Positions 21,715 through 59,499 of a stretch of 64,000 nucleotides of DNA are shown one piece after another; positions within the stretch are counted from its first letter, which is position 1; the number at the start of each line of letters is the position of its first letter. Position numbers and translations under genes: made by a program. Source of the stretch: Lepiota brunneoincarnata (Eukaryota; Basidiomycota; Agaricomycetes; Agaricales; Agaricaceae); the NCBI GenBank assembly GCA_023014365.1, contig JAEBUN010000041.1:1-64000 (forward strand). Direction: 5' to 3'. Under the pieces are notes generated by a model. That model made no database searches. It worked only from the letters and a program-made list of their open reading frames with translations, and had not been told where the DNA came from.

Positions 21715-22947
21715 CACTGCGCCAGCAAACTGATAAGACAAATGGCATATTAAAATAAAATTTTATTGATAACCTGAGCATGAATCTGATAAACCACATA
21801 ACATATCAAATACATATCATAAAGAATATTCTGGTATGTCAAATGGGATATCAGATATACTTTTTTTGAGTTATCAAATATAATTTCACAAAATTAATGC
21901 ACAATATACTCTTAATAATGCAGGTGGCATATCAAATCCTTATCAGGATCAGGTTTAAGGTATATACAAAAAAAACCAGCTGGACTAGTGTTTCTAAAAT
22001 TGAGAGGTACTGAAAGACATGCATTTTGGCAATCCCACGTTAAAGCTATGATATGGTTTTGGTAGGCCTGAAGCAATATTAAAATAAAATAGTGACAAAA
22101 CGTTACTGTATATTCATAATAGGGTCATGGAGAGGTACAAGGAATATTGAATATACGGTCTCACTATGTGAAAAATACCCCACCAGAACTGCCTGGTGCT
22201 GAAGTCATATATTCTGTTGTTAGTTTTGATAGCACACTCACAGCACCAGCTCAATCAAGTGGTTACAGTGGACAAATACTAGTGGTATTTATGCTGGTGA
22301 ACATGAATTTGAGTGAGGCTCTGGGAGATATATTAGTGTGGCTGGAGAAGTGACATTGACCTGGCAAGCAATATGCTGCAAAGGGGGATAGGGTCAGGTT
22401 GGATGCAACGCAGGGACGGGGGAGATATACGCATCTGGGCTGAGCTCAAGCCAGCTAACACCACACTCGATGTCCTGGCCATTCCCAAGATTCTGTGCAA
22501 TTCAGTGGTAATCGCTCGGATTCGTCACAATTTGGGGGGTGAATGTTGATCATGTACTACACAAACAATACATGAATTGTTGAGCTAGGGGTGTGCTTAC
22601 CTGGAGCAGGTCCGAGCCATTTCCAACTGTGATGGAGAGCAGATTGCTGGGTATCCTCGTCCAGGAATGCTTTGTCTGATGGGTGGTTGATACATTTAGC
22701 GCACGCTCACTCAGAGCACAATGTCAGGGAAACTCACAATGTCTGTTCCCCTTCTCTTCATCAGACAAACATGGTGGGCATGGCTGGGATTCCATATACA
22801 TTATCTAAAGGGAATCTATCTGAAGGATCGACAAAGGTCAGACAATCTTACCCCCACAGGAAATGAGACATTGTACTTACCTACCAAACAGCCTTCGGAT
22901 TTCGGCCAACGCATGTACCCTTCTCTCCCTGTCGTGGTCGGTAATGA
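21715..22947 (+). repeat. left terminal inverted repeat of the CACTA-like element, outer part
   Basis: Matches the reverse complement of about 56600-57690; the first 500 bases differ at only a few positions, the inner part shows small insertions. Sub-terminal motifs of the form TATCAAAT/ATATCAGAT recur (for example around 21810, 21850, 21880 and 21930), like the sub-terminal transposase-binding repeats of CACTA elements. Short open frames in it are repeat sequence, not genes. Confidence 0.85.
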
Positions 22948-23114
22948 TCATGCCACCAATGCAAAACTGTCTCCACTGCCCTGGCGATTAGATATTTACG
23001 CTGATCCCAGGGACATAGTACTTACCACTCCAGCAATCCTTCTAGACATATGTATAGTCATACCGCTGGAAAGTCACTTTAATCCAGTGATGATTGATGT
23101 AGACCTCCACGCAG
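22948..23114. other. extra sequence inside the left inverted repeat, left flank of gypsy-B
   Basis: Absent from the right inverted repeat. Together with 31357-31650 it forms an earlier insertion of about 450 bp into which gypsy-B later integrated. AATGAT occurs at both edges (about 22943 and 31627), a possible target duplication. No gene. Confidence 0.45.
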
Positions 23115-23812
23115 TGTTATGATCCGTGCTCCTTCTGTATCCGAGGATAACTGGAGACGGCCTTCAATCACTCTACAAGGTGTCCAAGACGGTTGGCCTT
23201 ATAGAGCTTAGTGGATCGCGCTCAATGAGATAACGAGGGAAGACGCCAAGTTAAGGCAGAGAGGTAAACGACCGCTGTTAACAAGATTAAAGCTTGAGGC
23301 TTTAATCTCTACTTGTACAGGCCTTATATACCTATGAGATGCTATATACTCGTTATAGGTTACTTGGCTGTTCTACTGGTCGTGCGCAGTCCTGACCATG
23401 ATGCACATCCTGGCTGATGGCATCCTAGCGTTATTTATATTACAATGAGTCAGTACTCTCGCTACTGCTGTGCGACGTTCCATCGCTTTCCTCTGACTCA
23501 TAATCTCCTTCTCCCAATTGTATCTCCATGGAGTCTTCTCCATTCTCGCTCTCCATTCTCTCGGTGCTTCCATCCGTATCGGAGGTTGGATCGGTTGATC
23601 CATGGTTATCTTCCTCGTCCTCGGGGTATTCCAATATATCCTCCAAGGTTATCTCCATTCCTGCTTCTCTCGCCAGGTCCTGCATGGCGGTGTAGTATTC
23701 CCCTTCCTCGTCTTCGTATTCTTGTGCCCGTAGTTGATCTGTAGTCTCCTGTACCCATCTTGTAAAGTCGAATAGTAATTCTTGTTCCTCCCGGTCTGGA
23801 CTGTTCATAACA
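23115..23812 (-). repeat. 3' LTR of gypsy-B
   Basis: I see no difference from the LTR at 30659-31356. The long frame of the post-pol region runs into it and stops at 23440, so the LTR carries coding sequence for an acidic Asp/Glu/Ser-rich C-terminus. Confidence 0.9.
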
Positions 23813-25011
23813 TTATCCCCTTCGTAAGGTCTGATGTCCTCATCAGACATATCCTCAGTATAGTCCGACAGGCTCTCCTGTAATGTTTGATTCGGCGATG
23901 GGGTCCCAGTCGAAGTATGGGTCGGGTTCTGGGGAGTCGCTTCGGTAACTTGGTGGTCTGGGGATGGCGGGTCTTGGGTGAGGTCGATGACGATGGGTTC
24001 TCTGGAGTGAATGGTGGCGGGTGTGCCGAAGGATCGATTCAGGAAGTCGGTGGCTTCCACTAGCAGATGTGGTGGTGGCGTTGGTGGTCGGAATGACGAC
24101 GGGGGCATTTTGAATTCGGGTGCGGAGGGGTCTGGCTGAAGCGGGGCGCTGCTCGGTGCTTGCAACAATGTGTCGAATATTGTTGTTTGTGGTTTCACGT
24201 GTGAGGGATCGAGCTCTGCTTGGTATTCCTCGTGGGCGGCGATACAGGCCAGGTACCATACTTGCGGGTTGATGCTGGTAAGGGTTTCTCTCGCAGTGCT
24301 TCTCGTAATGGCCTGGGGCAATCTTTCGACAATATCGACATTGGTAGCGCGGGCATCCTGCTTTGATATGGCCGAATCGACGGCAGCAATTGCAGCGAGT
24401 TCGGGTGGTGGATAAGTGAGTGGTGGTAGTCCCGACGGGGGCGTCATTAGAAGCAGATATAGCTTGTACAACACTTGATGATTGGTTACTCGTATCCACC
24501 ATGGGAGGGTTGGAAGGTTGGGTGGTGGTCCCGATAGGTAAGATAGGGCGGTCCTGACTTCCGCTTCCATTGCTCGGGCTTGGGATCGGACTCTCGAACG
24601 GGAATTCGGTGAGAGCGGTTGATAACATGGCAGAAATGGTGTTGCGGTCCTGTTCCTCTGTTGCGCTAGAAAGAATAGTGGCGCATAGTTTTTCGAATTC
24701 TGTTGCTCGGTCGTGGACGAGGCGCTTGTGATACAGAAGAGCAGTAAATGTCTTCCAGCAGGTGTCGACCAGGGGTACCATCGCTGGACTGCGTTTAAGA
24801 CGGGTTCCGGTAATATGAAAGGGAACTTCGTGTAAAAGGATGGATCGTATCTCGGGTTGGTTGGAGGGAAGGAAGGTATGCCGGATGATATAAGGACTGT
24901 TGGTCCTGTCTGGTTGGTCGTCAACGGTATTGGTGGCAGGGTTAGGTTGGCTATTTCCTTCGACGCGGTTCGCCAGGGATATGATTCTTTCCCGGATGAG
25001 AAGGCGTCCAT
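23440..25011 (-). CDS. second long frame over the gypsy-B post-pol region, extending into the 3' LTR
   Basis: 523 codons without a stop, in a different frame from the zinc-knuckle ORF. Its C-terminal 180 residues look protein-like: a SUMO-interaction-type motif (PIVIDLTQD), then a strongly acidic tail (DEEGEYYTAMQDLAREAG, EYPEDEED) that lies within the LTR. The N-terminal half overlaps the zinc-knuckle ORF and could be a shadow. The likely solution is one protein that starts in the zinc-knuckle frame and is spliced or shifted into this frame; I cannot fix the junction. Confidence 0.4.
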   Translation of the reverse strand: MDAFSSGKESYPWRTASKEIANLTLPPIPLTTNQTGPTVLISSGIPSFPPTNPRYDPSFYTKFPFILPEPVLNAVQRWYPWSTPAGRHLLLFCITSASSTTEQQNSKNYAPLFFLAQQRNRTATPFLPCYQPLSPNSRSRVRSQARAMEAEVRTALSYLSGPPPNLPTLPWWIRVTNHQVLYKLYLLLMTPPSGLPPLTYPPPELAAIAAVDSAISKQDARATNVDIVERLPQAITRSTARETLTSINPQVWYLACIAAHEEYQAELDPSHVKPQTTIFDTLLQAPSSAPLQPDPSAPEFKMPPSSFRPPTPPPHLLVEATDFLNRSFGTPATIHSREPIVIDLTQDPPSPDHQVTEATPQNPTHTSTGTPSPNQTLQESLSDYTEDMSDEDIRPYEGDNVMNSPDREEQELLFDFTRWVQETTDQLRAQEYEDEEGEYYTAMQDLAREAGMEITLEDILEYPEDEEDNHGSTDPTSDTDGSTERMESENGEDSMEIQLGEGDYESEESDGTSHSSSESTDSL

Positions 25012-25069
25012 CGTTGTCTGGCTCTGGGAGGTCTGGAGTGGCTGCTCGAGTGTTGGGTGGTTGGGTCAT
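23855..25069 (-). CDS. post-pol ORF of gypsy-B with double zinc knuckle
   Basis: 404 aa from the ATG at 25069, overlapping the last 119 nt of pol in another frame. The N-terminal half is mostly helical and gag-like in composition; at about 240-275 it has two adjacent knuckles, CNCCRRFGHIKAGC and CRYCRKIAPGHYEKHC. The C-terminus is Arg/His/Pro-rich. The knuckle pair and its position after the chromodomain are shared with the older gypsy-A at about 19.3-19.5 kb, so it is a kept part of these elements, not a chance frame. Role unknown; RNA/DNA binding or chaperone is the simplest guess. It may be spliced into the second frame described at 23440-25011. Confidence 0.6.
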   Translation of the reverse strand: MTQPPNTRAATPDLPEPDNDGRLLIRERIISLANRVEGNSQPNPATNTVDDQPDRTNSPYIIRHTFLPSNQPEIRSILLHEVPFHITGTRLKRSPAMVPLVDTCWKTFTALLYHKRLVHDRATEFEKLCATILSSATEEQDRNTISAMLSTALTEFPFESPIPSPSNGSGSQDRPILPIGTTTQPSNPPMVDTSNQSSSVVQAISASNDAPVGTTTTHLSTTRTRCNCCRRFGHIKAGCPRYQCRYCRKIAPGHYEKHCERNPYQHQPASMVPGLYRRPRGIPSRARSLTRETTNNNIRHIVASTEQRPASARPLRTRIQNAPVVIPTTNATTTSASGSHRLPESILRHTRHHSLQRTHRHRPHPRPAIPRPPSYRSDSPEPDPYFDWDPIAESNITGEPVGLY

Positions 25070-28000
25070 TGGTGGGGTTGTCTAATTTGTGGGCCCTTTT
25101 ATATTCTTCAATGACTTCCTTGGCGTTCTCCAGGTTTGCTTCTGGCTCCCAGGAATCCTCAGTGGGAAGGTATCCTTTCCATCTGACTAGGAATTGATAC
25201 TTGTTCCGGAATTTTCTGTGGCGCAGTATTGACTCGACCTCGTATTCTTCTTCTCCATTTACAAGGTCGGGTGGTGGGGCTGTGTTGTATTCCCCATGTG
25301 TGTCGTTCTCTTCTGCAGGCATTAGGAGGCTCGCATGAAACTTGTTGTGGATCTTCCATTTGATGGGTAATTTTAGTTCGTAGGTAACAGGTCCGAGTTT
25401 TCTTGTTATGGTGAAGGGACCTTCTCGGCGTTGGGCCAGTTTCTTTGAGGCGTACTGAATTGGGAGGTTGCGGTTGTCGAGCCAAACCTTCTGTCCAACT
25501 TTTAGATTGATATCTGGCCGGTTATATCTTGCAGCCATTTTTAGTCTGGCTTGTTCATGCGCAGCTTGGGCTTCTTGGCGTATCTTGGCGAGGTATTTAA
25601 ACTTCTCTCCTATTGCTGGAATGTTCGTTGGCTCCTCGGAGGTCGGAAATCCTTTGGGGCTTGATCCATAGAGGAGTTCAAATGGGGTATGTTGGTGTTC
25701 GGCGTGTGTTTTTGAATTGTGGACATATTCCAGGAGTGGGAGTGCCTTTACCCATTTGTTCGGGTTCGATGAGCAATAGATGCCAAGGTAGAGTTCTATT
25801 TCTTGATTGAATCGCTCTGTTTGTCCGTCTGTCTGGGGGTGGTAGGCGGTAGAGAGTGCTTGTTCGATTCCGAGTTGTTTGTAGAATTCTTTCATGGATT
25901 TGGCAGCGAATCTGGGGTCGCGATCGCTGAGAACTTTCTCGGGAAGGCCAAATCTAGAGAATAGCCGTTTGATAAGAATTTCGGCGATCTTGTCCGCGTT
26001 GGCTGTTTTCGCAGTAGGTTCTAGAATTATCCCCTTCGTAAGCTGGTCGACCACGACCAGTATAGAATCATGGGGTCCGTCCGGGGGTAGGTCTGTGATA
26101 AGATCCATCGAGATGTTCGAGAATGGACGGGTAGAACGGGGTCCAGGGATAGGTTGAAGCGGTGATTTTAGGGGGTGGCGATTGATCTTGTATTGTTGGC
26201 AAGCGCCACATCCTTTGACGTAATTTTTGACAAAGGATCGCATCCCAGGCCAGTAGGCGTATTCCTGGAGTTTTCTAGTTGTTTCTGCGATTCCAGGGTG
26301 TCCTGCGGTGGGTGAGTCGTGTACTCTTTGCAGTAAGCGGCGTCTGAGGTGTAGATCTTGTGGTATAAATAGCTTTCCTTGAACGCGTGGGTGTCCTGAG
26401 TCATCTTCTTGGGCGATGTTGGTCTGTTTCTTTTTCTTCCACAGCTCTTTTATTTCCTTTTTAGTGTTTTCGTCGATAATATGGATATGTTGTGGCTGTT
26501 CTGGGGTGAAGAATTTGTCAGGGAGTGCAACGACCTGTTTATTGTCTCTTGTCTTGGGTTCATGATCGGGTCGTCTGGAAAGGGCATCTGCTGGTCCGTT
26601 TTTCTTTCCAGGGATATGTCGGATTTCGATGTCAAATCGTTGCATGTAGGCAATCCATCGGGCTTGTCTTCTGCTGAGGTCTTCAGGTTTTCTCCAGCGG
26701 CGAAGGTTGTCGTGATCTGACCATACGATGGTCTTGTGTGATGATCCTTCTATATGGTGGCGCCATTCTTTGAGTGCTCGGATAATGGCGAAGAGTTCCT
26801 GTTCGGAGCAATGATAGTTGCGTTCGGCTGGTGAGAATCCTTTTGAGAAGTATGCGACTGGGTGTTTAACTCCGTTGTTGTCGCGTTGAAGTAGGACTGC
26901 TCCTGATGCAAATAGTGATGCGTCGCATTCGATTTCGAAGGGTTTGTCTCGGTCGGGGACCATTAATACCGGTTCGCTTTGGAATTTTCTCTTGAGAGTA
27001 TCGAAGGCGTTCTGGCATTCTTCTGTCCATTCGAATTTCTTGGTTTTGGACATTAGGGCATTGAGAGGTTTTGCCCATGTGGCGTATTGGTGTATGAATT
27101 TTCGATAAAAGTTGCAAAATCCTATGAATTTTCGTACATCGCGCGGGGTAGTTGGTGTTGGCCATTCAGCGATGCCTTTGAGCTTTGCTGGGTCCATCGA
27201 AACTGAGTCGGGAGTGATAATAACTCCTAGATATTCGAGTCGTTGTCGTTCGAATTCGCATTTCTCGGTTTTGAGGTATAGATCGTTGTCCTTGAGTATC
27301 TTGAGTACTTCTCTTGTGAGGCGTCGAAGTTCTTGTTTTGTTTTTGCGTGAATGAGGATGTCGTCCATGTAAACAATTACTCCTCCGTTGTCGATGAGTT
27401 TTCGGAATAATGAGTCCATCATGGTTTGGAATGTTGCTGGGGAGTTACACATTCCAAAGAACATAACCGTGGGTTTGAATAATCCTCGGGGTGTCCTGAA
27501 GGCTCCTTTCCATTCATCTCCTTTGCGTATGCGGATGTTGTTGTATCCTGCTCGTACGTCGAGTTTGGTAAAGTATTTTGATCCTCGGAGTTTGTCGAGA
27601 ATATGAGAGATGAGGGGAAGGTTGTACGCATTTTTGACGGTATGTTCGTTGAGGTACCTGTAGTCTTGACAGGGGCGTAGTTTTCCGTCTTTCTTCCCTA
27701 CGAAGAAGAAGGGTGATGCCATTGGCGATTCGGATGGTCGAATGTATCCCTTTTGAAGGTTTTCTTCTAGGAACGTGTCGAGTTCTTTTTCTTCATTGAG
27801 GGAGAGTCGGTAGGACTTCATGGCAATTGGTTTGAATGATTCCTTGAGTTCAATTTTGTGATCCCATGGTCGTTGTGGGGGGAATCGTTCGGCTTGTTTC
27901 TTGCTAAATACTGGGAGATATTCGTGGAATTCCGTGGGTACGACTTTTCTTGGGTCGTCGTTTTTCTTTTCTCCGTGTTGTACGGCGAGGAATTGTGACG

Positions 28001-28445
28001 CGGAGGCTTTGAAGTTGATTTCTTCGAAGCTTGTGGGTTCTAGTGTGGAGATGTGGTTGAGTTGGTCGTTGTAGATCCAATCGGGTTCCATGGATTGGAT
28101 GAGTTCTCGGAATATAGTGTTGTCCCAACGTTCGTTTCTCCAGCGTAGTTGTTTGGCATCCCAGTCGATGTCTGGGTTGTGCTCTGCAAGCCAAGGGAAT
28201 CCAAGGATGAGTCTTGGGCTTCCGAGGGAGACTACTTTTGGTTTGATCTCCATATTCTTCCCGTTAACCGTTAGGTTGAGGGTCGTGTAGTGGGTGGCTG
28301 TTCCATTTTCATTAACAGATCCATCGGCATTTCGTACTTCGATGGGTCGATCGAGGGGTGTTGTTTTGAATGAATGTTGTTTGACCATTCCGGGGTCAAT
28401 GAAGTTTCCTGCTGCTCCTGAGTCGAGTAGGGCGAGTAGTTCCAC
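24951..28445 (-). CDS. pol: Pol polyprotein of gypsy-B (protease, RT, RNase H, integrase, chromodomain)
   Basis: 1164 aa, intact from the first ATG; the frame is open a little further upstream (to about 28520). Domains in order: aspartic protease with LLDSGAAGNF at 6-15; reverse transcriptase with FFGMCNSPATFQ and YMDD at about 358; RNase H (ECDASLFASGAVLLQ); integrase with the HHCC zinc domain (HPGIAETTRKL, YWPGM, CGACQQYK) and DDE core (MDLITDLPP, SDRDPRF, AYHPQTDGQTERFNQE); chromodomain at about 1060-1115 (EEEYEVESILRHRK, FLVRWKGYLPTEDSWEP). This order defines chromoviruses. It copies RNA to DNA in the particle and inserts it into chromatin read by the chromodomain. Confidence 0.95.
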   Translation of the reverse strand: MELLALLDSGAAGNFIDPGMVKQHSFKTTPLDRPIEVRNADGSVNENGTATHYTTLNLTVNGKNMEIKPKVVSLGSPRLILGFPWLAEHNPDIDWDAKQLRWRNERWDNTIFRELIQSMEPDWIYNDQLNHISTLEPTSFEEINFKASASQFLAVQHGEKKNDDPRKVVPTEFHEYLPVFSKKQAERFPPQRPWDHKIELKESFKPIAMKSYRLSLNEEKELDTFLEENLQKGYIRPSESPMASPFFFVGKKDGKLRPCQDYRYLNEHTVKNAYNLPLISHILDKLRGSKYFTKLDVRAGYNNIRIRKGDEWKGAFRTPRGLFKPTVMFFGMCNSPATFQTMMDSLFRKLIDNGGVIVYMDDILIHAKTKQELRRLTREVLKILKDNDLYLKTEKCEFERQRLEYLGVIITPDSVSMDPAKLKGIAEWPTPTTPRDVRKFIGFCNFYRKFIHQYATWAKPLNALMSKTKKFEWTEECQNAFDTLKRKFQSEPVLMVPDRDKPFEIECDASLFASGAVLLQRDNNGVKHPVAYFSKGFSPAERNYHCSEQELFAIIRALKEWRHHIEGSSHKTIVWSDHDNLRRWRKPEDLSRRQARWIAYMQRFDIEIRHIPGKKNGPADALSRRPDHEPKTRDNKQVVALPDKFFTPEQPQHIHIIDENTKKEIKELWKKKKQTNIAQEDDSGHPRVQGKLFIPQDLHLRRRLLQRVHDSPTAGHPGIAETTRKLQEYAYWPGMRSFVKNYVKGCGACQQYKINRHPLKSPLQPIPGPRSTRPFSNISMDLITDLPPDGPHDSILVVVDQLTKGIILEPTAKTANADKIAEILIKRLFSRFGLPEKVLSDRDPRFAAKSMKEFYKQLGIEQALSTAYHPQTDGQTERFNQEIELYLGIYCSSNPNKWVKALPLLEYVHNSKTHAEHQHTPFELLYGSSPKGFPTSEEPTNIPAIGEKFKYLAKIRQEAQAAHEQARLKMAARYNRPDINLKVGQKVWLDNRNLPIQYASKKLAQRREGPFTITRKLGPVTYELKLPIKWKIHNKFHASLLMPAEENDTHGEYNTAPPPDLVNGEEEYEVESILRHRKFRNKYQFLVRWKGYLPTEDSWEPEANLENAKEVIEEYKRAHKLDNPTNDPTTQHSSSHSRPPRARQRWTPSHPGKNHIPGEPRRRK

Positions 28446-28606
28446 GCTTTCGGGTCCTTCCTTAGTGATCTTGTGTTTTCGGATTCGACAGGGTAGATGT
28501 ATTACGCGTGCTGACGATTCCTGTAATTTTACAACATTAATATCATTTTGTGAATAGGAAAGGGAAGGAGGTCTTTGTGGAGGGCTAGACGTGGTGGCTA
28601 GTCTCC

Positions 28607-29731
28607 TTAGGCAAAATCCTTAACCAGAGGGGCGTCTGGGTGGTTGGATTCGTTTGCAAAGTGTTCGTAGATGTCCTCGACTTCTTCGTCGGTTGCATCT
28701 TCTAGTATGTTGTATAGGGAATTCTTCTTCCTATAACTTGCTTGTCTTCTTCTGGATATCGCATTTGACCGGTTTCTGGCATCCAAATTGCGGGGTAATT
28801 CGGATCGGCGATATATTGTCTTCTTGGTGGGGCATTCGCGGGCGAAGTGTCCAGTCTTGCGGCAGTTGAAGCATCTCCTTTCTTTGAGATCCTTTCTTTG
28901 GGCGTCCGTGAGGATTGCATTGAGGGCTTCGCGGGTGCGTTCTTGTACCAACTGGTGGAGTCTGTCTTCTTCGGTTTCCTCGTCTTCATCAGCTTCCTCG
29001 GCGAGTAGATCTGGCTCGTCCTCAAAGTCGAGGTTGTAGACTGCTTCGGCGAGTTGGTCAATATCCATTGCGTTAGGGTCTGTTGCTTGATAGGGCAGTG
29101 GGACACGGCGCGTAAAAGCATTTCTTTTCCCTTTAAATGGGCGAGTGCGCGAAGTCGTTGGAAACGAGGGAGTTCCTCGAGTTTGCATATAGTCGCGTTG
29201 AGTTTGTAGTATTTGATATGCTGTTCGAGCTTGCTTGAACCAGTCGCTGAGTTTGTTTCCTGGATTGAGGCTAATTGTCTTGATTGCGACGGGGCGATCC
29301 AGCCCGTTCTTGAAATAGTTGACCGCCGCCACTCCATCTCCAAGGTCGGCCTGATAGGCAAGTATCTGGAACTGGGATATGTAATCGTCGATATATCGTC
29401 CATTCTGTTTGAGGTGGCGGATTCTGTCCATTGCGTCGGCGGGGACATTGTTTGGGGCGAAGGATGTATCGAGTCCTTCGAGAAATTTCTTCCATGTCGG
29501 GAGGGTCTGGCTTCCATCAAGTTCTTTGTTTGATTCCAAGAATGCTCCTCTCCATGTTGCGGCGGGGCCGGTGGACATGTATGAAAGGGCGAATTGTATC
29601 TTGGTCTTGTCATCGGGAAAGGCTCCTGGCTTTGCATCGATGTATAGTTGTACTGCATCCTTCCAGAGGCGGAAGTAGTCGGTCTCTCCATTAAAGGTTG
29701 GGGGTGTGTTAATTTTTGCGGAGGAGGCCAT
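28607..29731 (-). CDS. gag: Gag capsid/nucleocapsid of gypsy-B
   Basis: 374 aa, intact. The N-terminal two thirds match the retrotransposon gag capsid domain (FNGETDYFRLWKDAVQLY, ATWRGAF, LKQNGRYIDDYISQFQILA). An acidic linker rich in Glu/Asp follows (about 225-265), then one CCHC zinc knuckle, CFNCRKTGHFAREC, at about 300-313, and a basic tail. It forms the virus-like particle that packages element RNA. The stop at 28607 is about 90 nt before the open pol frame, so pol must be made by splicing, reinitiation or frameshift; an acceptor-like TTACAG at about 28525 precedes pol. Confidence 0.9.
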   Translation of the reverse strand: MASSAKINTPPTFNGETDYFRLWKDAVQLYIDAKPGAFPDDKTKIQFALSYMSTGPAATWRGAFLESNKELDGSQTLPTWKKFLEGLDTSFAPNNVPADAMDRIRHLKQNGRYIDDYISQFQILAYQADLGDGVAAVNYFKNGLDRPVAIKTISLNPGNKLSDWFKQARTAYQILQTQRDYMQTRGTPSFPTTSRTRPFKGKRNAFTRRVPLPYQATDPNAMDIDQLAEAVYNLDFEDEPDLLAEEADEDEETEEDRLHQLVQERTREALNAILTDAQRKDLKERRCFNCRKTGHFARECPTKKTIYRRSELPRNLDARNRSNAISRRRQASYRKKNSLYNILEDATDEEVEDIYEHFANESNHPDAPLVKDFA

Positions 29732-29739
29732 ATTGTTAA

Positions 29740-30468
29740 TGTCAGAGGTTGTGGATTCCTCGTCGGAAGTGTGAATAGACCCGGTAGTGGGGCTAACTTC
29801 GGATGATTCGGATTGTATAGGGGAACTGGATCGAGGCGGTGAGTGTACCGGTGATCCAAGTGGTGATGCGAGGGGTGAGAATGTTCTTGGGGGTTTCTGT
29901 TGCGAAGTGTTGTCGCTAGTTCTTGTACTTGTTGAGGGTTGAGGACCGGAGGATGGGGTAGATGTTCTATGAATCGGCTCCCCGAGCTTTGAGCGGGTAG
30001 AGGTGGCAGTTCTTTCAGGTGGTGGTTGTTTAGGTAGGGATTGAAGAACTGATGCTGGGGGTGCTGGATATCCTGGGTCTTCTGTTCGACGTTGAACTCT
30101 CTCGGTAGGTTGTGTAGGGTACGGTGCGGAACCAGAGGGTGAACGAGTGAGGGGTATAGGTTTTGTTTTCTTTTTAGGGTCCGTGGTGGAGGGGGTGTGA
30201 AGTCGGGTTCGGAGTCGGTTGTCGACCAGTCAGAACTGTTGGATTCTTCGTAGTCGGTGGCAAGGGGGTCGTTTCGGTTTGTAGACAGGGTGAAGAGGGA
30301 AGAAGTCGAAGGTGAAGGTGAGGGTGAATAAACAACGCTTGCGGGTGCGTTATCCCAATCGACGCTTGAAGGTGCGGATGACCTGTATACAACGCTTACG
30401 GGTGCGTTATCCCAATCAACACTTAAAGGTGTGGATGACCTATCAACGCTTTCGGTGCGTCTGACCAA
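29740..30468 (-). CDS. upstream (leader) ORF of gypsy-B, Pro/Ser-rich
   Basis: Between the 5' LTR and gag the minus strand is open for about 240 codons from an ATG at 30468, in a different frame from gag. The product has two 19-residue repeats (SVDWDNAP core), acidic patches and long Pro/His-rich stretches. The same frame continues open through most of gag, but that part looks like a shadow of gag. It may be a leader protein, or an N-terminal part of gag joined by splicing or frameshift. No known domain. Confidence 0.4.
30332..30445 (-). repeat. 57-bp tandem repeat in the gypsy-B leader ORF
   Basis: Two units, 30332-30388 and 30389-30445, diverged at several positions. As 57 bp is 19 codons, they give a repeated peptide with the core SVDWDNAP in the upstream ORF. 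Confidence 0.7.
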
Positions 30469-30644
30469 GGGTGCAGAGGGTATGGTGGCCTGCTCTACGG
30501 GGGTGTATCACCGGACAGCGACAAGGCGTGTCGTCAGATACGGTTGGCACTCGGATAGCGATAAAGCGTATCGTCTGCCGGTGTGGAAGGGTAGCGACAA
30601 GGCGTACCGATACCACGGGGTGTACGATGGAGGTTGTCCAAAGG

Positions 30645-30656
30645 AAGCTTTAATCT
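30645..30656 (-). other. putative primer-binding site of gypsy-B, self-priming type
   Basis: Two bases inside the 5' LTR the minus strand reads AGATTAAAGCTT. Its exact complement, AAGCTTTAATCT, lies in the LTR at 30839-30828, next to the predicted transcript start. No usual tRNA 3' end (TGG...) is seen here. This layout matches Tf1/sushi-type self-priming, in which the RNA 5' end folds back onto the primer site. Confidence 0.55.
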
Positions 30657-30658
30657 AA

Positions 30659-31356
30659 TGTTATGATCCGTGCTCCTTCTGTATCCGAGGATAACTGGAG
30701 ACGGCCTTCAATCACTCTACAAGGTGTCCAAGACGGTTGGCCTTATAGAGCTTAGTGGATCGCGCTCAATGAGATAACGAGGGAAGACGCCAAGTTAAGG
30801 CAGAGAGGTAAACGACCGCTGTTAACAAGATTAAAGCTTGAGGCTTTAATCTCTACTTGTACAGGCCTTATATACCTATGAGATGCTATATACTCGTTAT
30901 AGGTTACTTGGCTGTTCTACTGGTCGTGCGCAGTCCTGACCATGATGCACATCCTGGCTGATGGCATCCTAGCGTTATTTATATTACAATGAGTCAGTAC
31001 TCTCGCTACTGCTGTGCGACGTTCCATCGCTTTCCTCTGACTCATAATCTCCTTCTCCCAATTGTATCTCCATGGAGTCTTCTCCATTCTCGCTCTCCAT
31101 TCTCTCGGTGCTTCCATCCGTATCGGAGGTTGGATCGGTTGATCCATGGTTATCTTCCTCGTCCTCGGGGTATTCCAATATATCCTCCAAGGTTATCTCC
31201 ATTCCTGCTTCTCTCGCCAGGTCCTGCATGGCGGTGTAGTATTCCCCTTCCTCGTCTTCGTATTCTTGTGCCCGTAGTTGATCTGTAGTCTCCTGTACCC
31301 ATCTTGTAAAGTCGAATAGTAATTCTTGTTCCTCCCGGTCTGGACTGTTCATAACA
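30659..31356 (-). repeat. 5' LTR of gypsy-B
   Basis: Promoter LTR for minus-strand transcription. It contains a TATA box at 30874-30868 and a 25-bp near-palindrome at 30852-30828 where transcription should begin. The outer part also encodes, in one frame, the acidic tail that the 3' LTR gives to the post-pol ORF. Confidence 0.9.
30868..30874 (-). promoter_or_regulatory. TATA box of gypsy-B 5' LTR
   Basis: TATATAA on the minus strand within GGTATATAAGG. A start site 25-35 nt downstream would fall in the near-palindrome at 30852-30828, so the RNA would begin with or just before that structure. Confidence 0.5.
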
Positions 31357-31650
31357 CGCAGTGTCTGCGCTGGAACCATTCTGTGAGTATGTATCATGAT
31401 CGAATACCGAACGGTTACTTACCTTGAATGGTCGGGGGTGAGATTCAACGGGCCTCCTGGAAATACGCTGCGCCATCGTGGTTGGGTGGTGAGAGGTGAG
31501 AGGTGAGAGGTGAAATGCGAGAGGTGAGAGGCGAGAGGTGAGAGAAGACGTGAGAGGTGAGAGACAAAAGGCGAGAGGTGAGAGAAGATGTGAGAGGTAA
31601 GAGGTAAGGATCAAATGAAGTCATCTAATGATTGACTTATGAGTCCATGC
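31357..31650. repeat. right flank of gypsy-B with GAGAGGT-type minisatellite
   Basis: After the target duplication CGCAG, the stretch 31487-31610 consists of degenerate repeats of GTGAGAGGT/GCGAGAGGT. It is absent from the right inverted repeat and belongs to the earlier insertion. No gene. Confidence 0.6.
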
Positions 31651-31871
31651 CTGTTTGTGTATTCCATCTGGCAGAGCCCTCCAGATTCATCTAGATTCTG
31701 TGGTAAGTGTAATGTATTTAGGTTCTCAATACAACGGTGTCTGCACACCGCAAAAGATAGGCTGGCATGCCCACCAGGGCTGGGCCAGTGTGATCCCGAT
31801 TGCGAGGAGGAAAATTCGAATGGTTCGTACGCAAGAGCTTGCAGATTATTTGAGAATCTGAATTAAGCATT
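31651..31871 (+). repeat. left terminal inverted repeat, inner part
   Basis: Continuation of the left inverted repeat beyond the insertions at 22948-31650. It matches the reverse complement of 56325-56545 (GTGTATTCCATCTGGCAGAG through to AATTAAGCATT). Homology with the right end stops at 31871. Confidence 0.8.
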
Positions 31872-35054: not shown

Positions 35055-35354
35055 GGTGGTAGAACAGAGAGGTAGCATACCCTCGGTCGTATAGAGGCAC
35101 TTTGTTAATGGGGTGTATAGACAATGTTTGACAGCCTAAATTCAGAACAATGGTTCCTTTGAGATGAATAAAAGAGCTTGAGTGATGTATGGACTGCCCA
35201 AACTCAGGGCAGTGCTTCCTGAGTGGTGTGTTTGTGATCTCCAAGGTGAGGGGAAGATGACTAGCAGAGGATTCTACGCATTCAGAACGCTATGTTGTCT
35301 AGTTACACTTATATCTACCCAGAGTCTCCTTCTTAACCCAGCGAGGTCCGTCGT

Positions 35355-49455: not shown

Positions 49456-50235
49456 ATGTTTGGCAGGCATTATGGATTCCAGAAGCCTTATCCGATTGAA
49501 ATACCTTCTAAGGAACAAGTCGAACGGTTTCGACAGACAGGCAAAGCCATAGATGGTCCCAACCTAGCTGACCTTAAATTGGATTTCATTGGCAGTTCCG
49601 TCTACACTCCTTGGAACAATCGTGCAGCTCTACTCCTTGCCTGCGATTATGTAGCGAGAGAGGACGCATTCATCGAGGATGAGACCCATGCTCAGGAGCA
49701 GGTTGCCCGAAGGGAAGGCAGCATTGCGTGACAGCGCAAGGTATGCGAGATTCCACCACTTTCCACAGGACATCAATTGATATGGGTCATTTTGAGCTTC
49801 GGGATCGTCAGGAGGCGGCCGCCATGCACTATAGGTCACATGGGCCTCAGATGGAACGGTTAGCAGAGCTCTGGAAACACCTTCCTAAAGAGGCGTGTAG
49901 CAGTGATGAAGCTGTTTGGTACAGCACCATCCGATACGAGATTGCAAGACCCACCTGGCGCAATCCCAAGATTGCAAGGTGGTTCAGGAGCTTCGATGCC
50001 TTGCATATGTCAATGTGATTCAGTGCAGATGGGAAGCCAGACGGCCCAGGTCAATTTCCTCATATTCGCTATGCCAATTCAACAGCGATAGACATCCACT
50101 CTAAGGCTCCCAAAGGGCTTCCACAGAACTTCTATGATGATATTTGGTACCACAGTCTGGATACAATTCAACAGGAGGCACTTGATGTGCAGCCCGAATT
50201 GGATCTCTTATTCCCCCTACCTATCCTTTGGTACG
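49456..50235 (+). pseudogene. unknown cargo gene fragment upstream of the transposase
   Basis: Frame pieces read KPYPIEIPSKEQVERFR, PWNNRAALLLACDYVAREDA, WRNPKIARWFRSFDALHMSM, then after a TGA at 50016 FSADGKPDGPGQFPHIRYAN and APKGLPQNFYDDIWYHSL. The TGA sits where CGA would read through. Proteins with this pattern are, as far as I recall, abundant in Agaricomycete genomes beside Tnp2-type elements. It may be the N-terminal region of the transposase system or a separate accessory protein. Confidence 0.4.
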
Positions 50236-50425
50236 TCGTGTCAATATTATCGATAGCTGCTCTCTCACACCAGAACCTGCAGCATTATAGAGTGATTTGA
50301 GCATGTTAGGGCACACAAAGACCGACCCTTGCCACCAAATCACCCTTCTTTGACCCCTCTTTGAAACGGTCACTACGTGAAGAGCTCATTGTGATCCCTT
50401 TATTGCACTTTAGGACACAAAGAAA

Positions 50426-53400
50426 GTGTTATATAGACATGTACTTGTTACCTGCTGTGCAACCTCCCACCCTTTGATGCCTCAATCATCCTTGAATAAT
50501 TGTTCCCAGTTGAATCCAGCCAGAGTCGCTGCTTTGGAATGGCTTTGTGAGGTAGAGCAATGTTTACATCGCCACAATACGCAGACGCTCCAGGATGAAT
50601 TTATGTCCCGCTCCTTTCAATTTGTGGGTTCACTGGAAAATTGTTCCATTATCGATTTGTTCATTGAGCCCAATACACTACTCTTGGATGTGGTCTCACC
50701 CAACAACTCCCTTGCCATGTCCCACGAGAGTTGGTTGGACCAGGAGCATCAGACAGCTAGGGACTTTCTCGACCACTATGCCAATGATGGAGAACTTGCA
50801 CCACGATTGAGCTGCTTGCTTGCAGAGATACAAGCAGATAAAATGTGTTTGAATCAGCTAAAGCAAGGCAAATGGAAGAGGCAGAGAAATCTAGTGCAGG
50901 AAGTGAACCAGGTCAACCCCGGTAAGCTGTGCGCTAGTGAACAAACAGACCTAACTCACGCCTTCTACAGGGGAGTATATGGTGTCACCATTCTTGGCCA
51001 TGGATCCCTGGCTGATTGTCATCTACATTACCACACTCTCCATTTACCTGCTCTCTGGTGCCTTGCAGAACCATTGCAGCTTCTATCTTGTGGCATTCCA
51101 GTTATTTCAAAATATTTCACTCCAGTCAAATGATACCCTCGCTGGCCATGCATCTTCAATCCCCAAGATGGTTGAGACACTCGCCCACCACTTGAATATC
51201 CAACCAAAGTATCATCCTTACATATGCTGTCCTCACTGCTTCTGCCTCTATGAGCCTGATGACAAGTACCCAGAAAATTGCACCCACATTGAGGCTCCCG
51301 GAGAACAACCATGTGGTAGCACACTGCGAGATCAGGGAACAAACAAGCCCAAGAGGGAGTATGTCATGCACGATTTCAAGGATTGGCTTGCTCGACTTTA
51401 TGCCCGCCCTGGCATGGAAGAGCTCCTCGATCGCAGCAACCTCTCTTCTCCCACCTCTGAAGTGATGGCAGATATATGGGATGCTCCCACTCTCAGGGAT
51501 TTTAAAGGACCAGATGGGAAGGGTTTTGCGCTGATATGCCAATTTCACGCCTATACATGAATTCTGTACTCCGGAACAATTCTTTACATAGAATCATTGG
51601 CTATATCATTAAAGAACTCTATAGAGGATTGGTACCATATCCCGTAGTAGCCAGTTTGACCGAACTGAGGATATTCGAGCCTCAGAAGTGTTCAAACCAG
51701 CTCATTATCACTAAGCTTAGTGAACCAAGCTATCAGAACGCTCTCCGGAGGGATTCAGGGCTCTACATAGCCTATCGAGTATACCCCGGTCGCATCAAGG
51801 GACCTTACGAGCAGTTTTCTGATGAACCCAAATGCGTTTGAACATAAAAGAATGTACCTAGTGGCTGTCGCAGGCGTATTACGTCTATAGCAAGTTCAAT
51901 AATGATGACCGGACCACGGAACAGAACGTCCAACGTTTGGGAGGCAATACCCGATGCCCAAAACCCTAGAAATATCAAAGACTCCTAATCAACAAGTGCT
52001 TTGTGGGTCCCGGCACTTTGGCATACTGCTTAACTGAGATTAATTACAATGGATCAAGGGATTGTCCATCCGCTATACATTCCGATCATAATTGATCCGG
52101 AAACTTAACGCGCTCGCGTGGATGCAGAATAATGCAGATGAGCACGGAACACGTCTGGCTGGATTTCCATTCGTTAATCAGAGAAAAACCCATAACCCAG
52201 GGTGAGGTAGAAATGCTGCCAAACCTTCCAAAATGTTCTACAGTGCCTGTAACAATTAAGCTTATTGTTTTCTATTTCATATTTACTATCTCTCATATGT
52301 ATCTAAACAATATAAATATGGTCGCACTTGTTCGTGAAGAAGCAAGAGGTCTCACCCCTGCTTCCACACGCAAGTCTGCGAGCCGTGATCAAGAATGGTT
52401 TCAGAGGGCTATTTAGTGTGTGTTGTTAAGTGTGATTTCTTCGGTCGTCGACCAACCCAGAGACAGAGACAGAGACCAGAGTTTAGAGTTTAGAGTTCCA
52501 GAGTGCTAGAGACAGAGACAGAGACAGAGACCAGAGTTCAGAGACCAGAGACCAGAGACCAGAGACCCAGCGCTTTGAATTGGCAGGGATTGTCCTTTCA
52601 TTGTTGCACTGTACAGCTAAGATAACTTCAACAGCTGTTCATTAACCTCTAAAAACACTACTCTCTTGAATTTCGCTGTCAGAACGCACCCCCAGAACAC
52701 CCTAAAAGACGAAACTGTTCATTATCTATCTCATTCCACTTGTATTAGCTTAAGCTTATCAAATTGCGGCTAAGCTTAGTGAAAACAAGCCCACTATCTA
52801 TATTAAAACAATGAAAGTTTCTCCACCTTTTCAGCGCGGAGTGGTGGGGCTGAGGGCTGCTTAATTTTTGGTCTCAATTTCGATGGGCTCAACCCATATG
52901 GGAACAAACAGTCCAGGAAACAGGTCACAGTTGGTGCCTTGTATCTGACATGTCTCAATCTCCCTCGTGCAATATGGAATCAAATAGAAAACATCTTTCT
53001 TGTCAGGATCATCCCCGGCCCAACGAAACCCTCCCTAACTCAGATAAATCATCTCCTAAGGCCCCTCGTTGATGTACTCCTGGAGCTTTGGAATGTTGGG
53101 ATATTTCTTAGATGTACCCCGCTGTTCCCAGCTGGCAGGAAAGTCACAGCTGCTCTCATTCCCCTTATCTGTGACCTACTCACTTCGAAGCAAGTGGCTG
53201 GTTTCGGAGCCCACAGCTGCATGCACTTTTGTTCACATTGTCAATTGACACTTGATGACCTCCTGAATCTTGATTTTCAGTCGTGGAAGCTGCGCACCAA
53301 GGAAACCCATATCGAGAGGGCAAAAGCATGGAAAAATGCTTCAACCAAGCTCGAGCAGGATGACATATTCTGAAAATATGGGATACGGTGGTCAGAACTG

Positions 53401-55816
53401 TTATGCTTGCCATATTGGGACCCCACATCGTTCGTTGTGATCGATTCAATGCACCTCTTCTTCTTGGGCCTTTTTCATCACCATGCTATTGACATCTGGG
53501 GGATGGATGCAAAAATGATGGATGGTGAGAGCAAGACCTACCAAGCGCTGAGGGAACCGATTGCTGAGGAGGAAATGTACCAAGCTCGTAAGGCATTCTC
53601 AGATGGTGCTTTCTCTAAGCTACAGGGAATGCAAAAGAATACCCTTGTCCATTTATGCTCAGAATTGAAACTATGGTTTGGTGGACATAAACGCAACCTA
53701 GTAGTAAATCTTCGCACAGTAAATATCCGTACAATTTTTGCCAGTAATTTGCTCACATTATGCAGTACAGGGAATCCCTCCCAGCTGATCACCCCACACT
53801 CAACTACATACCTCCTCAACAATCGACTGATCCAATCCTCACCCCCAAACCAGCTCAATTTAACTCCCAAGTAGGTCTGAATTGGGCTTACAGTTTTAGT
53901 GCGTCACTGATATTATGTAGCACCTTATTGCTGCTGTTCCGGACCCCACTTTGCCCATGACAATCCTGCAACCAAACTCCCGTTTAAACAATGACAGCCA
54001 ACCATCGGTTCTGACAACCCAGGAGATTACCAGCTACTGGGACTCTGCAAACAAAACAACGATTGTAGGACTCAGGAAAATGCTGCTCATCCAACTTCTT
54101 GAAGCGCAGGGAGTCTCCAAAAATTTGAAGTCTCAGACTAAGGCAGAGCTAGTCAAGCAAGTGCAGATGATGGTATGTTGTTGGGAACAGTCAATCTCAA
54201 TTAGGGTATTGATACTACACAGCGAAAGAACCAGGGAATCATTGGCGAGGATGAGAAACTCAAAGATCCTACTTTATGTCACCAGGGGTACCACCATACT
54301 CTCTCACAGGCAAATAGTTTCGGGTGGGTGCAGCCAGCAGCAGATGAAATGGAACTGGAATTCCAGGAGATGGCCCAAATAGAGCCTATTGCAGAAAACA
54401 AATGTGAGTTCTATTCTAATGTTCTTAGTTTGTCTTGCCTGATGAGTTCAGCCTCGTCGGAACACTTCCAAGCCCCTGGCACCCAACACCCCTTGTCTAC
54501 CAAGGCTCAGAGAGCAACCAAAGACATGCGTCCTGGGCAAAAACACCATCGCAGAAATTAGAAAAGACATGTCCAGATTGTCTCTTCCATCATGGGTTTC
54601 AAACGGTCCTGCTTATCCTGGTCAAGCAAAGGGCGGTAAACTACATGCTGATCAATGGCAGTCATTTTTTATCATCAACCTTCTGATCACGCTGACATGC
54701 TTGTGGGGCTTCAAGCCCGAAAACAGCCGTAAATTCAGGATGCTGGAGAATTTTCTCTATTTGATCAGTGCCATCAAGGTTGCCTCGACGCGTGCTATCA
54801 CCAAAGAGCACATTGCTCTGTACGAAGACTACATATACAAGTATCTATCAACTTTGATAGAGCTCTATCCTGGGTTTCAACTTACACCCATCCATCACAT
54901 TGCCTTACACTTAGGGGAGTTTCTGCGATGGTTTGGTCTTACACATGGCTGGAGGTGCTTTGCATTTGAGAGATATAATTACCTACTGCAACAATCATCC
55001 ACGAATAAGCTATTTGGTTTGTCCCATATTTGCCGGTCAACACATAACATGTTAACTCATTCCCCAACAGGTCAAATGGAAGGAACAATGTTCAAGAAAT
55101 TCTGCATGGTGCAAAATCTATGCATTCTCCTTAACACTTCACAGCTTCCCAAGCAGCTCCGCCCCCTCATCAACAAGTTCAACCAGACCTTCAATAGTGA
55201 TATTCGGGGTACCCTCCAAAGCGAGGATCTGACAAATTACCAAGGCAATGGTGACTCCCAGTTCAGGGATGCTACAGCTCTGCAAGGGAGTGCATATCAC
55301 TTATTGGTTGCATGGGTCAATCAAAACCTCACTTGCAAAGTCACCAAAATTCCCCAGATTGCAAAACAGCGTAATGCTGTGCACAGTAATGTTTTGTATC
55401 AGGATTCCTGCTGTTCAGTTCAGAACAGCCAGGTTATGTTTCGCCAGGGTGGCTCTGATACGTTTAGCTGGGGTGCAGGCCTCATCAACGCAATTTTTGA
55501 TCATGAGCTTGAAACGACAGGGGGAAATCGTTTGACAAGCACATCCCTCCTCATTGAGCCCTACAAACTGGTGGTCCTTGATGCTGACAGTAAAACACAC
55601 ATGCTCCTATGGGTGTTTCATTGGGATGCACGGTTTTCATCTATACTGGGTCAACTTTTTTGCAAACAAGTCACACAACCTATTCTCGTACATGTGGATC
55701 AGATTCTTGGCCATTTTGGTCATGCCTTGACTGACTATTGTGACGGCTCCGGACATGAAATTTTCCAGGCCATTCTGCTTGATAAAGTAAGGCCAAGTGC
55801 ATCATTTGTGACTTGA
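50426..55816 (+). pseudogene. Tnp2-type (CACTA) transposase, interrupted
   Basis: The N-terminal part (50426-51531) has a helical region, then a zinc-binding cluster (ICCPHCFCLYEPDD...CTH...CGSTL) and DIWDAPTLRDFKGPDGKG. The gene is then cut by a 1302-bp insertion (51532-52833, GCGC duplicated); across it the frame rejoins as GFA-RSGGAEGCLIFGLNFDG. The core follows: YLTCLNLPRAIWNQIENIFL, IIPGPTKPSLTQINHLLRPL, the CSHCQLTLDDL finger, a TGA at 53371-53373 (CGA expected), then LPYWDPTSFVVIDSMHLFFL. The C-terminal part (54569-55816) has GKLHADQWQSFFIINLLITL, HHIALHLGEFLRWFG and RCFAFERYNYLLQQ. These are hallmarks of Tnp2/CACTA transposases of basidiomycetes. A small DNA-binding-like segment (SAP-type, 54060-54170) lies between. 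With the insertion and the stop it cannot be active. Confidence 0.85.
51532..52833. mobile_element. 1302-bp solo-LTR-like insertion, copy 2, inside the transposase
   Basis: Begins TGATATGCC, ends CTTTTCA, flanked by GCGC at 51528-51531 and 52834-52837. Taking it out with one GCGC restores the transposase frame, which proves it is an insertion. Direct copy of 35355-36656. Confidence 0.8.
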
Positions 55817-56324
55817 ATAACTGAATCTTGTTCAGTAGGCCCTACACCGTGCATAAAATGAGTTAGTTTAGAGGGTCCATGTATACCCTGAATACCATAT
55901 ATGTATTAGCTATTTTATTCCTTGGTGTAAAACACAGCAACTGAGACAAGCTGCATACCAAGGATGGGACGCGTTTGGTTTGTCAGACACTCCTTTACTC
56001 CTAAAAGGTAAACACTGGTTACTTGTTCATCGACAAATAGATTCACAACACCCACCACTTCAAGGGCATTCATTCCTAACAACATTTTCCACATTGATGG
56101 TGCAAGCACCCCGGTTTTTATGCTGAAACCCACATGGAAGACTCTTGAAGATTCGATGGTGAGTTTCCAAGAATCATGCTCCTCACTGTCCCCAAAGCTA
56201 ATGCTATGAATGACGAGATACCCTCAGATCACTCCAGCTGCACAGCACGCCCGCACTTGACTGGAGAACCCTCAGGGAGTAACTCCTCTAAGGATTGAAC
56301 ATGGATTCTCTGAGAATCCGCACA
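55817..56324. other. spacer between transposase and right inverted repeat
   Basis: 3' flank of the transposase. Short frames only. Nothing recognised. Confidence 0.4.
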
Positions 56325-57690
56325 AATGCTTAATTCAGATTCTCAAATAATCTGCAAGCTCTTGCGTACAAACCATTTGAATTTTCCTCCTTGCAATTGG
56401 GATCACGCTGGCCCAGCCCTGGTGGGCATGCCAGCCTATCTTTTGCAGTGCATAGATACTGTTGTATTGAGAACCTAAATACATTACACTTACCACAGAA
56501 TCTAAATGAATCCAAAGGGCTCTGCCAGATGGAATACACAAACAGTAGACATAAACTCGTTCATTACCGACCATGACAGGGAGAGAAGGGTACACGCGTT
56601 GGCCAAAATCCAAAGGCTATTTGGTAGGTAAGTACAATGTCTCATTTCCTGTGGGGGTAAGATTGTCTGACCTTTGTCAATCCTTCAGATAGATTCCCTT
56701 TAGATAATGTATATGGAATCCCAGCCATGCCCACCATTTTTGTCTGATGAAGAGAAGGGGAACGGACATTGTGAGTTTCCCTGACGTTGTGCTCTGAGTG
56801 AGCATGTGCTAGATGTATCAACCACCCATCAGACAAAGCATTCCTGGACGAGGATACCCAGCAATTTGCTCTCCGTCACAGTTGGAAATGGCTCGGACCT
56901 GCTCCAGGTAAGCACACCCCTAGCTCAACAATCCATGTATCATTTGTGTAGTACATGATCAACATTCACCCCCCAAATCACAACGAATCCGAGCGATTAC
57001 CACTGAATTGCACAGAAGCCCAGATGCATATAACTCCCCTGTCTATCACTTGCCAGGATGCTACCGCTCAGGTACAGATCTTATTAATGTCGCTTCTCCA
57101 GCCACACTAATGTATCTCCCAGGGCCTCACTCAAAATCATGTTTGCCAGCATGAATACCACTACTGTCTGTTCACTCAAAACTGACAACAGAACTTATGA
57201 CTTCAGCACCGAACAGTTCTGGTGGGGTATTTTTCACATAGTGAGACCATGTATTTGATATTCCTTGTACCTTTCCATGACCTTATTCTGAATATACAGA
57301 GACATTTTGTCACAATTTTATTTTAATATTGCTTCAGGCCTACCAAAACCATATCATAGCTTTAACATGGGATTGCTGAAATGCATGTCTTTCAGTACCT
57401 CTCAATTTTAGAAACACTAGTCCAGCTGGTTTTTTTTGTATATACCTTAAACCTGATCCTGATAAGGATTTGATATGCCACCTGCATTATTAAGAGTATA
57501 TTGTGCATTAATTTTGTGAAATTATATTTGATAACTCAAAAAAAGTATATCTGATATCCCATTTGACATACCAGAATATTCTTTATGATATGTATTTGAT
57601 ATGTTATGTGGTTTATCAGATTCATGCTCAGGTTATAAATAAAATATTATTTTAATATGCCATTTGTCTTATCAGTTTGCTGGCACAGTG
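56325..57690 (-). repeat. right terminal inverted repeat of the CACTA-like element
   Basis: About 1366 bp, reverse complement of the left repeat (21715-22947 plus 31651-31871). It ends CAGTG at 57690. It lacks the gypsy-B insertion and the 450-bp extra sequence of the left copy, so it shows the original structure. Confidence 0.85.
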
Positions 57691-59371: not shown

Positions 59372-59499
59372 TCATTTATGCCTTATGCCCATGCTCATCA
59401 GATGTAGATACATATTCTGACAGGTTATGGGCCCCAGAAGTTGCTAAACCTATAAGCATACCAGAAATCACAAATTAGCTGAAAATGTCAACTGCCAAT

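Follow-up and report, generated by a model that had tools for sequence, protein, structure and literature searches.

The window analyzed here, 64,000 bp in length, comprises positions 1 to 64,000 (forward strand) of contig JAEBUN010000041.1 from Lepiota brunneoincarnata (assembly GCA_023014365.1, 55.6 Mb in 95 contigs). We designate it C38:1-64000 and name the other contigs in the same way. Positions 21715-57690 are occupied by a large transposon with genes for a Tnp2-type transposase, an SPT5-like protein, a SUN-domain protein and a WD40 protein between its ends. By its ends, its transposase and its dispersal, the element belongs to CACTA/EnSpm. Its gross length is 35,976 bp; subtraction of three nested insertions, together with one copy of each of their target-site duplications (TSDs), leaves about 25,117 bp. 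A first-pass annotation had described a 36-kb CACTA-like transposon at this position. The description as one inserted unit stands, but about 11 of the 36 kb were added by later insertions, and the net size is about 25.1 kb.

Ends and genes of the element

The ends and the genes between them are as follows.

21711-21714 (no strand): left copy of the CATA target-site duplication, adjoining the outer tip
21715-23114 (+): left terminal inverted repeat, outer part, with tip CACTGCGCCAGC; similar tips occur in the copies on C5, C20, C54, C63 and C42
31356-32174 (+): left terminal inverted repeat, inner part, placed by the continuity seen in the C20 right end
33816-35054 (-): WD40 gene, modelled with 323 open codons after splicing of five GT-AG introns; a sixth intron and the last exon or exons are tentative
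38598-39662 (-): SUN-domain (Sad1/UNC-84) gene, an open frame of 355 codons with a hydrophobic stretch seen by eye
40800-43435 (+): SPT5-like gene with an NGN/KOW region and TPAWDPSS repeats resembling a C-terminal repeat; six in-frame stops in the exons examined (41194-43435)
44944-46597 (+): uncharacterized open frames, with a hydrophobic stretch seen by eye, common to the C5 and C20 copies
49441-50297 (+): uncharacterized open frames upstream of Tnp2, common to the C5 and C20 copies
50955-51531 (+): Tnp2 gene, N-terminal part, with a zinc-ribbon-like stretch (CCPHC...CTH) seen by eye
52834-55813 (+): Tnp2 gene, catalytic part (Transposase_21), carrying stops
56325-57690 (-): right terminal inverted repeat, with tip CACTGTGCCAGC read inward
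57691-57694 (no strand): right copy of the CATA target-site duplication, adjoining the outer tip

The two ends align in inverted orientation in three blocks, each far beyond chance: 21715-22229 with 57690-57176 (95.5% over 515 bp), 22491-22947 with 57017-56561 (95.4% over 457 bp) and 31651-31871 with 56545-56325 (93.2% over 221 bp). This alignment confirms the inverted CACTG...CAGTG termini of the first-pass annotation; both tips read CACTG going inward, in keeping with the CAC..GTG form of CACTA/EnSpm ends. Repeats of about 1.4 kb had been claimed. Long, nearly matching repeats are present, but the ancestral left repeat was longer, about 2.2 kb (21715-23114 plus 31356-32174), and has been split by an 8.2-kb Ty3 insert. 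We derive this length from copies on C20 and C31 that run uninterrupted through the Ty3 insertion point; the C20 right end aligns to 32174-31355 and 23117-22491 in one continuous piece. The tips do not have the Plavaka termini, TGT..ACA or CATCA..TGATG, according to the rule in the relevant section of PMC12730594. The motif CATATYAA, chosen after an initial repeat scan of the ends, has three occurrences within the outer 400 bp at either end, none in the 1000 bp that follow in the left repeat, and one in 10,475 bp of the element body. There is also a 22-nt repeat family with four copies.

The Tnp2-type transposase reported beside the right repeat is indeed there. A Pfam scan gave Transposase_21 (PF02992), the domain of CACTA/EnSpm transposases, at 43.2 bits (cut-off 28.6) on 52807-53370. 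The window copy of the gene is broken, both by a solo long terminal repeat (LTR) at 51532-52833 and by stops. At 53440 it has the L/V/I-D-X-L/M-H-X3-L-G motif, given for animal and fungal Transposase_21 families in the part of PMC1636069 that treats them. GLNFDG (52870), ICDLL (53167), CSHC (53230), HHIALH (54893) and FERY (54965), which follow one another in this order, had been picked out by eye before the scan. The CACTA/EnSpm rule, as set out in a section of PMC12730594, asks for the DDE residues and, ahead of the last E, for C(2)C and H(3-4)H.

The SPT5-like gene scores 20.3 bits with the Pfam model KOW1_SPT5, just below the cut-off of 22. Despite this score, its predicted identity is supported through its relatives. 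It is collinear across four exons with C5:22.3-24.5 kb, and a protein search with that relative found six proteins, three at 30-39% identity and three weaker ones with SPT5 domains. The former are from Psilocybe cubensis (named chromatin elongation factor SPT5), from Pholiota conissans, and a protein without a name (P0002). P0002 is 37% identical to the window frame over 185 columns spanning the NGN and KOW1 part, has Spt5-NGN at 27.3 bits (cut-off 22.4, Pfam), and matches SPT5 structures in the PDB at 3.3e-11 and, weakly, plant RNA-directed DNA methylation 3 at 1e-4. The window gene also contains three TPAWDPSS-type repeats, which we take to be the SPT5 C-terminal repeat; the host SPT5 locus on C1 has TPAWNVSSRTP. 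With six stops over about 720 codons, the window gene is broken.

Fourteen places in the genome match the SPT5-like frame. Besides the frame itself, these are C28 at 80%, six places at 42-49% (C5:22 kb, C5:117 kb, C81, C89 and C92 twice), two at 35% (C76 and C47), the host gene on C1 at 30%, and three short pieces on C89, C92 and C28. Between the window gene and the C5:22-kb relative (694 codons, 41-51% amino-acid identity), there are 301, 226 and 448 changes at codon positions 1, 2 and 3. Because the changes pile up at position 3, the comparison shows that purifying selection acted in the longer history of these subfamilies, unlike the even distribution of changes among recent copies. About 18 kb downstream of the C5:22-kb gene, in the same relative orientation, there is a right-end repeat of this family with 73% identity, which suggests that gene and repeat may belong to a sister element; a genome-wide Transposase_21 search found no match between the two. 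C81 carries an SPT5-like gene and inverted repeats of the family about 34 kb apart. The SPT5-like genes on C89 and C92 have no inverted-repeat match on those contigs, and the tie between gene and element is therefore not general.

Several of these relatives, at C81:3376, C89:4375, C92:15103 and 33647, and C5:116834, have 43-49% identity and no stops in the matched part. C81 also has, at 37501-46700, a pair of inverted arms, each at least 2,721 bp long, that are 99.96% identical and contain a 75-83% relative of part of the element's inverted repeat. These arms show little CpG loss (0.85) and may represent a young, recently active subfamily.

Domain matches support the WD40 and SUN assignments of the first-pass annotation, as they do, through its relatives, that of the SPT5-like gene. 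The spliced WD40 model gives PF00400 at 30.2 bits (cut-off 27), and its nearest protein, from Macrolepiota fuliginosa, is 45% identical; the first WD40 frame (148 residues) has no other genome match at E<=0.001. The SUN frame gives Sad1_UNC at 52.8 bits (cut-off 22) and a PDB match to SUN1 at 2e-10, as expected of a SUN-domain protein. None of 1627 candidates reached E<=0.001 in a protein search with this frame. Two further SUN loci exist in the genome. The C2 gene matches at 26% identity along 168 residues, and the C1 gene has no clear alignment with the window gene in the alignments listed. We rejected the idea that the WD40 and SUN genes are recent captures of extant host genes, given the lack of a second match to the WD40 frame and the mere 26% identity of the C2 SUN gene. 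Both genes are open, with no stops over about 680 codons as against six in about 720 for the SPT5-like gene, a weak difference given the few CGA codons at risk.

The insertion site and later insertions

The element is flanked by an old Ty3 retrotransposon, and three younger sequences are nested within it.

20262-21566 (-): left flank, part of an old Ty3 pol corresponding to reference residues 747-1179
58175-59155 (-): right flank, part of an old Ty3 pol corresponding to reference residues 380-705
23115-31355 (-): nested young Ty3 retrotransposon in the left repeat, 8.2 kb, not part of the original element
35354-36656 (no strand): nested solo LTR, 1.3 kb, flanked by TCGT/TCAT, not part of the original element
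51532-52833 (no strand): solo LTR inside the Tnp2 gene, TSD GCGC, absent from the C5 copy

The two flanks are collinear parts of a Ty3 pol on the same strand; therefore, a single pol gene encloses the whole of 21715-57690. Joining the flanks at one CATA, and omitting a 405-bp repeat of the right flank, leaves 223 bp between the two pol matches; the 41 absent residues would need 123 bp. On the basis of its ends, its long inverted repeats, the flanking CATA and the collinear pol flanks, 21715-57690 is most likely a single CACTA/EnSpm-like insertion.

The ratio of observed to expected CpG (CpG o/e) is 0.485 on the WD40/SUN side of the body (95% confidence interval 0.43-0.55) and 0.478 on the side from the SPT5-like gene to Tnp2 (0.43-0.53). 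Equal depletion of both halves fits one unit of one age. Elsewhere, the two flanks have values of 0.12 and 0.13, the inverted repeats 0.43, positions 1-17000 of the window 0.88 and the young Ty3 insert 0.97. The latter has gag and pol, 698-bp LTRs that are 100% identical, and the TSD CGCAG. The two solo LTRs are of a different family from this insert.

The CpG profile also ranks the nested insertions by age. Repeats at 17800-21714 and 57691-64000, with CpG o/e of about 0.12, indicate the extent of CpG loss in old transposons of this genome. An LTR-like repeat family of about 0.4 kb (57749-58153, 17860-18175 and several other loci) has inserted beside or inside several copies of the element, including those on C5 and C54.

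Copies elsewhere in the genome and their decay

Positions 41816-57690 recur at C5:971-1003 kb with 95-96% identity, the outermost 525 bp (99.6%) lying beyond a nested retrotransposon. This copy is truncated at window position 41816 by another retrotransposon, and beyond the Ty3 element there a further repeat follows. Parts from 43777 onward recur at 89-94% in two places on C20, in swapped order, and 41053-41726 recurs on C28 at 92%. The C5 and C20 copies hold the SPT5-like gene or later parts, Tnp2 and the right end, and have flanks different from those of the window. The two pieces of the C20 copy, C20:614197-630778 and C20:685971-689651, meet at window position 46701/46702, reflecting either a rearrangement or an assembly fault.

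The inverted repeat has 21 match rows in the genome, including the window's own, and several of these are halves of one interrupted end. The ends on C38, at C5:1002 kb, at C20:630 kb and on C54 have different flanks, as dispersed copies of a CACTA/EnSpm element do. Those on C63, C42 and at C5:61 kb share a near-identical flank and are counted once; in them the repeat is joined directly to Tnp2 fragments, and we read them as probable internally deleted forms within a duplicated stretch. All three lie within about 62 kb of contig ends, in what is probably a duplicated subtelomeric block.

The C38 and C5 copies were compared over 14,049 aligned columns, with one insertion left out of each. They differ by 579 transitions and 28 transversions, and 511 of the transitions are at CpG. 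Whereas 49% of CpG sites differ, the figures for CpA, CpC and CpT are 1.6%, 1.3% and 0.5%. The pattern is alike in the Tnp2 part of C38 and C20 (243 transitions, 166 of them at CpG, and 17 transversions in 3,481 columns). At their right ends, C38 and C5 are 99.6% identical in the outermost 525 bp, compared with 96.5% further in; with a single CpG in that C38 stretch, gene conversion is not needed to account for this. CpG-targeted C-to-T decay of basidiomycete transposons, linked to a Masc2-type methyltransferase, is described in part of PMC4352252, and cytosine methylation may likewise be the cause here.

Changes between C38 and C5 fall evenly on codon positions 1, 2 and 3, at 119/101/108 in 14 open frames (including two overlapping pairs, and not necessarily all genes) and 63/53/63 in the eight SPT5-like and Tnp2 frames among them. 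Therefore, no selection is visible since these copies split. In the SPT5-like and Tnp2 exons examined, four copies have 18 stop sites, of which 15 are open in another copy; two of the remaining three are covered by one copy only, and one is a stop in both covering copies. Eleven of the 15 fit the loss of CGA codons at CpG; the other four comprise three further C-to-T changes and a transversion. Stops occur in each of the three Tnp2 copies examined, and C38 and C5 also differ by single-base indels in this region. Three copies cover seven of the Tnp2 stop sites, and at each of these seven at least one copy lacks the stop. The copies probably spread intact and then decayed separately, because 11 of the 15 stop sites that are open elsewhere fit decayed CGA codons.

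Explanations, known relatives and possible roles

We put at about 80% the explanation that the locus holds a CACTA/EnSpm-like transposon of about 25 kb, carrying Tnp2, an SPT5 paralogue, SUN, WD40 and uncharacterized proteins, which arrived in one insertion and whose copies later underwent CpG decay. Several observations weigh against it. The CATA direct repeat seen by the first-pass annotation is present at both outer edges, but the C5 right end is also flanked outside by CATA, and part of the match may therefore be target preference; the sequence outside the ends is CATA on C5, AATA on C20 and GAAA on C54, and the 4-bp CATA pair comes from the one copy with both ends. A duplication of 4 bp differs from the 3 bp of plant CACTA elements (as given in part of PMC8978399), although it is within the 2-5 bp listed for the wider clade in a section of PMC12730594. 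The left and right inverted repeats diverge by 4.5% in the outer 515 bp, including six transversions. Neither an empty allele nor a second copy with both ends was seen in the assembly. At two of the seven Tnp2 stop sites, two of the three copies share the stop. Finally, the step in CpG depletion lies 500-750 bp inside the tips, the outermost repeats being as CpG-poor as the flanks. We dropped the step as an exact boundary of the element, and lowered our confidence from 0.82 to 0.80 because step and tips do not coincide.

The WD40 and SUN genes also tell against this explanation, in that no other copy tests whether they travel with the element: the C5 copy is cut at 41816, the C20 copy starts at 43777 and the C28 match ends at 41053. 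The smaller element, with the SPT5-like gene, the uncharacterized frames and Tnp2, could have come first, and the WD40/SUN block (about 32.2-40.4 kb) could be a separate later insertion in this copy only. The DNA of the block was found nowhere else in the assembly, apart from its first 303 bp, which are repeat, by a search that scores the best candidates and skips common words; the first WD40 frame, as described above, is equally without a second match. The left ends on C31, C5:61 kb, C63 and C42 are without the block as far as they were fetched, three of the four being short deleted forms; on C31 the left repeat continues to window position 31943, and nothing in the next 1.5 kb matches the block. 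However, the block and the remaining element show equal CpG decay, the SPT5-like gene extends into the block with its 5' exon (40800-41183), and the SUN gene of the block is no recent copy of the distant C2 gene. We consider a separate insertion somewhat unlikely. The SPT5-like gene is the only predicted cargo gene shown to recur in other copies. Thus the host-like nuclear cargo of the first-pass annotation is correct as to the genes lying between the ends, but recurrence extends to this one gene, and WD40 and SUN as regular cargo are unproven.

Alternatively, the copies could already have been dead when they spread, as passengers mobilized by a transposase supplied from another locus, with a cargo that never mattered. 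Sources of transposase are plentiful (62 Transposase_21 matches in the genome, 60 of them above the cut-off), and shared stops exist, both the SPT5-like stop common to the two covering copies and those at the two Tnp2 sites mentioned above. Yet no three-copy Tnp2 site has a stop common to all, and earlier selection on the SPT5-like gene is visible, which makes this alternative improbable. That two independent small elements, or a pile-up of nested repeats, lie opposed by chance and only look like the two ends of one large transposon can be dismissed as very improbable. Three later insertions are truly nested inside and short internally deleted forms of the family exist, but a single pol gene supplies both outer flanks in collinear order, each tip has CATA on its outer side, and the body has decayed evenly at CpG.

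If one insertion of the whole transposon is accepted, the element entered the pol of an old Ty3 retrotransposon and duplicated its CATA target, as the ends, the CATA on both sides and the collinear flanks show. Judging from the family, movement would be by Tnp2-mediated cut and paste at the CACTG ends, using the long inverted repeats. The mutation spectrum and the copy-specific stops suggest that sister copies would have spread with their genes still open and then been CpG-mutated separately; the Ty3 element and the two solo LTRs entered it afterwards. The SPT5-like gene, given its past selection, may be a long-term component of the element lineage, perhaps also beyond this element family. It probably aids transcription of the element or counters its silencing. 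The WD40 and SUN genes may be passengers of this copy or sublineage.

Most descriptions of CACTA transposons list a transposase and one further protein. In the sections of PMC1636069 on fungal CACTA/EnSpm Transposase_21 families, the CACTG ends, inverted repeats, Transposase_21 and its L/V/I-D-X-L/M-H-X3-L-G motif are as found here; our element differs in its inverted repeats of about 2.2 kb, 4-bp duplication, net size of about 25 kb, and SPT5-like, SUN and WD40 genes. Its size alone is not the exception that the first-pass annotation made of it in calling CACTA elements "usually far smaller", as a soybean CACTA of 20.5 kb is reported in part of PMC2613891. Large size and captured host sequence are shared with the large plant elements treated there and in PMC8978399. 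The captured pieces in Chenopodium CACTA, in the account of the latter, are gene fragments, whereas here there are open SUN and WD40 genes and an SPT5-like gene family kept by selection.

Fungal EnSpm, Plavaka and other DNA transposons encode a host-derived TET/JBP dioxygenase, according to part of Kojima 2025 (PMC12730594). They resemble our element in being fungal, in the CAC..GTG ends and in a host-derived gene that may act on silencing; our element has an SPT5 paralogue, SUN and WD40 instead, and the 17 element frames scanned with Pfam, out of 114 frames of at least 70 amino acids, gave no TET/JBP match. Starships, in the portion of PMC13066641 describing them, are likewise large with many genes, but use a tyrosine recombinase in place of Tnp2 and long inverted repeats; no tyrosine-recombinase captain domain was found in the same 17 frames. 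Large CACTA elements, captured gene fragments and fungal TET/JBP transposons are thus already known, and SPT5-like, SUN and WD40 cargo is apparently new: our literature search, which covered open-licence papers, found no report of any of the three in transposons among the papers listed.

In plants, an SPT5 relative serves RNA-directed DNA methylation. It is conceivable, if doubtful, that this agaricomycete CACTA lineage has its own set of nuclear proteins, a dedicated SPT5 paralogue, with the parts for RNA-polymerase-II elongation and the C-terminal repeat retained, that would transcribe through silenced chromatin or disturb methylation, and SUN and WD40 proteins that would tether or shield the element at the nuclear envelope. 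The earlier proposal that the cargo proteins steer the transcription or nuclear position of the element is unproven. The locus itself records both arrival and decay: a pol gene was split by one insertion, the loss of CpG serves as a relative clock, and the stops differ from copy to copy. If our explanation is true, a CACTA lineage that keeps an SPT5 paralogue under selection would extend the carriage of host genes, of the kind known for TET/JBP, to transcription elongation.

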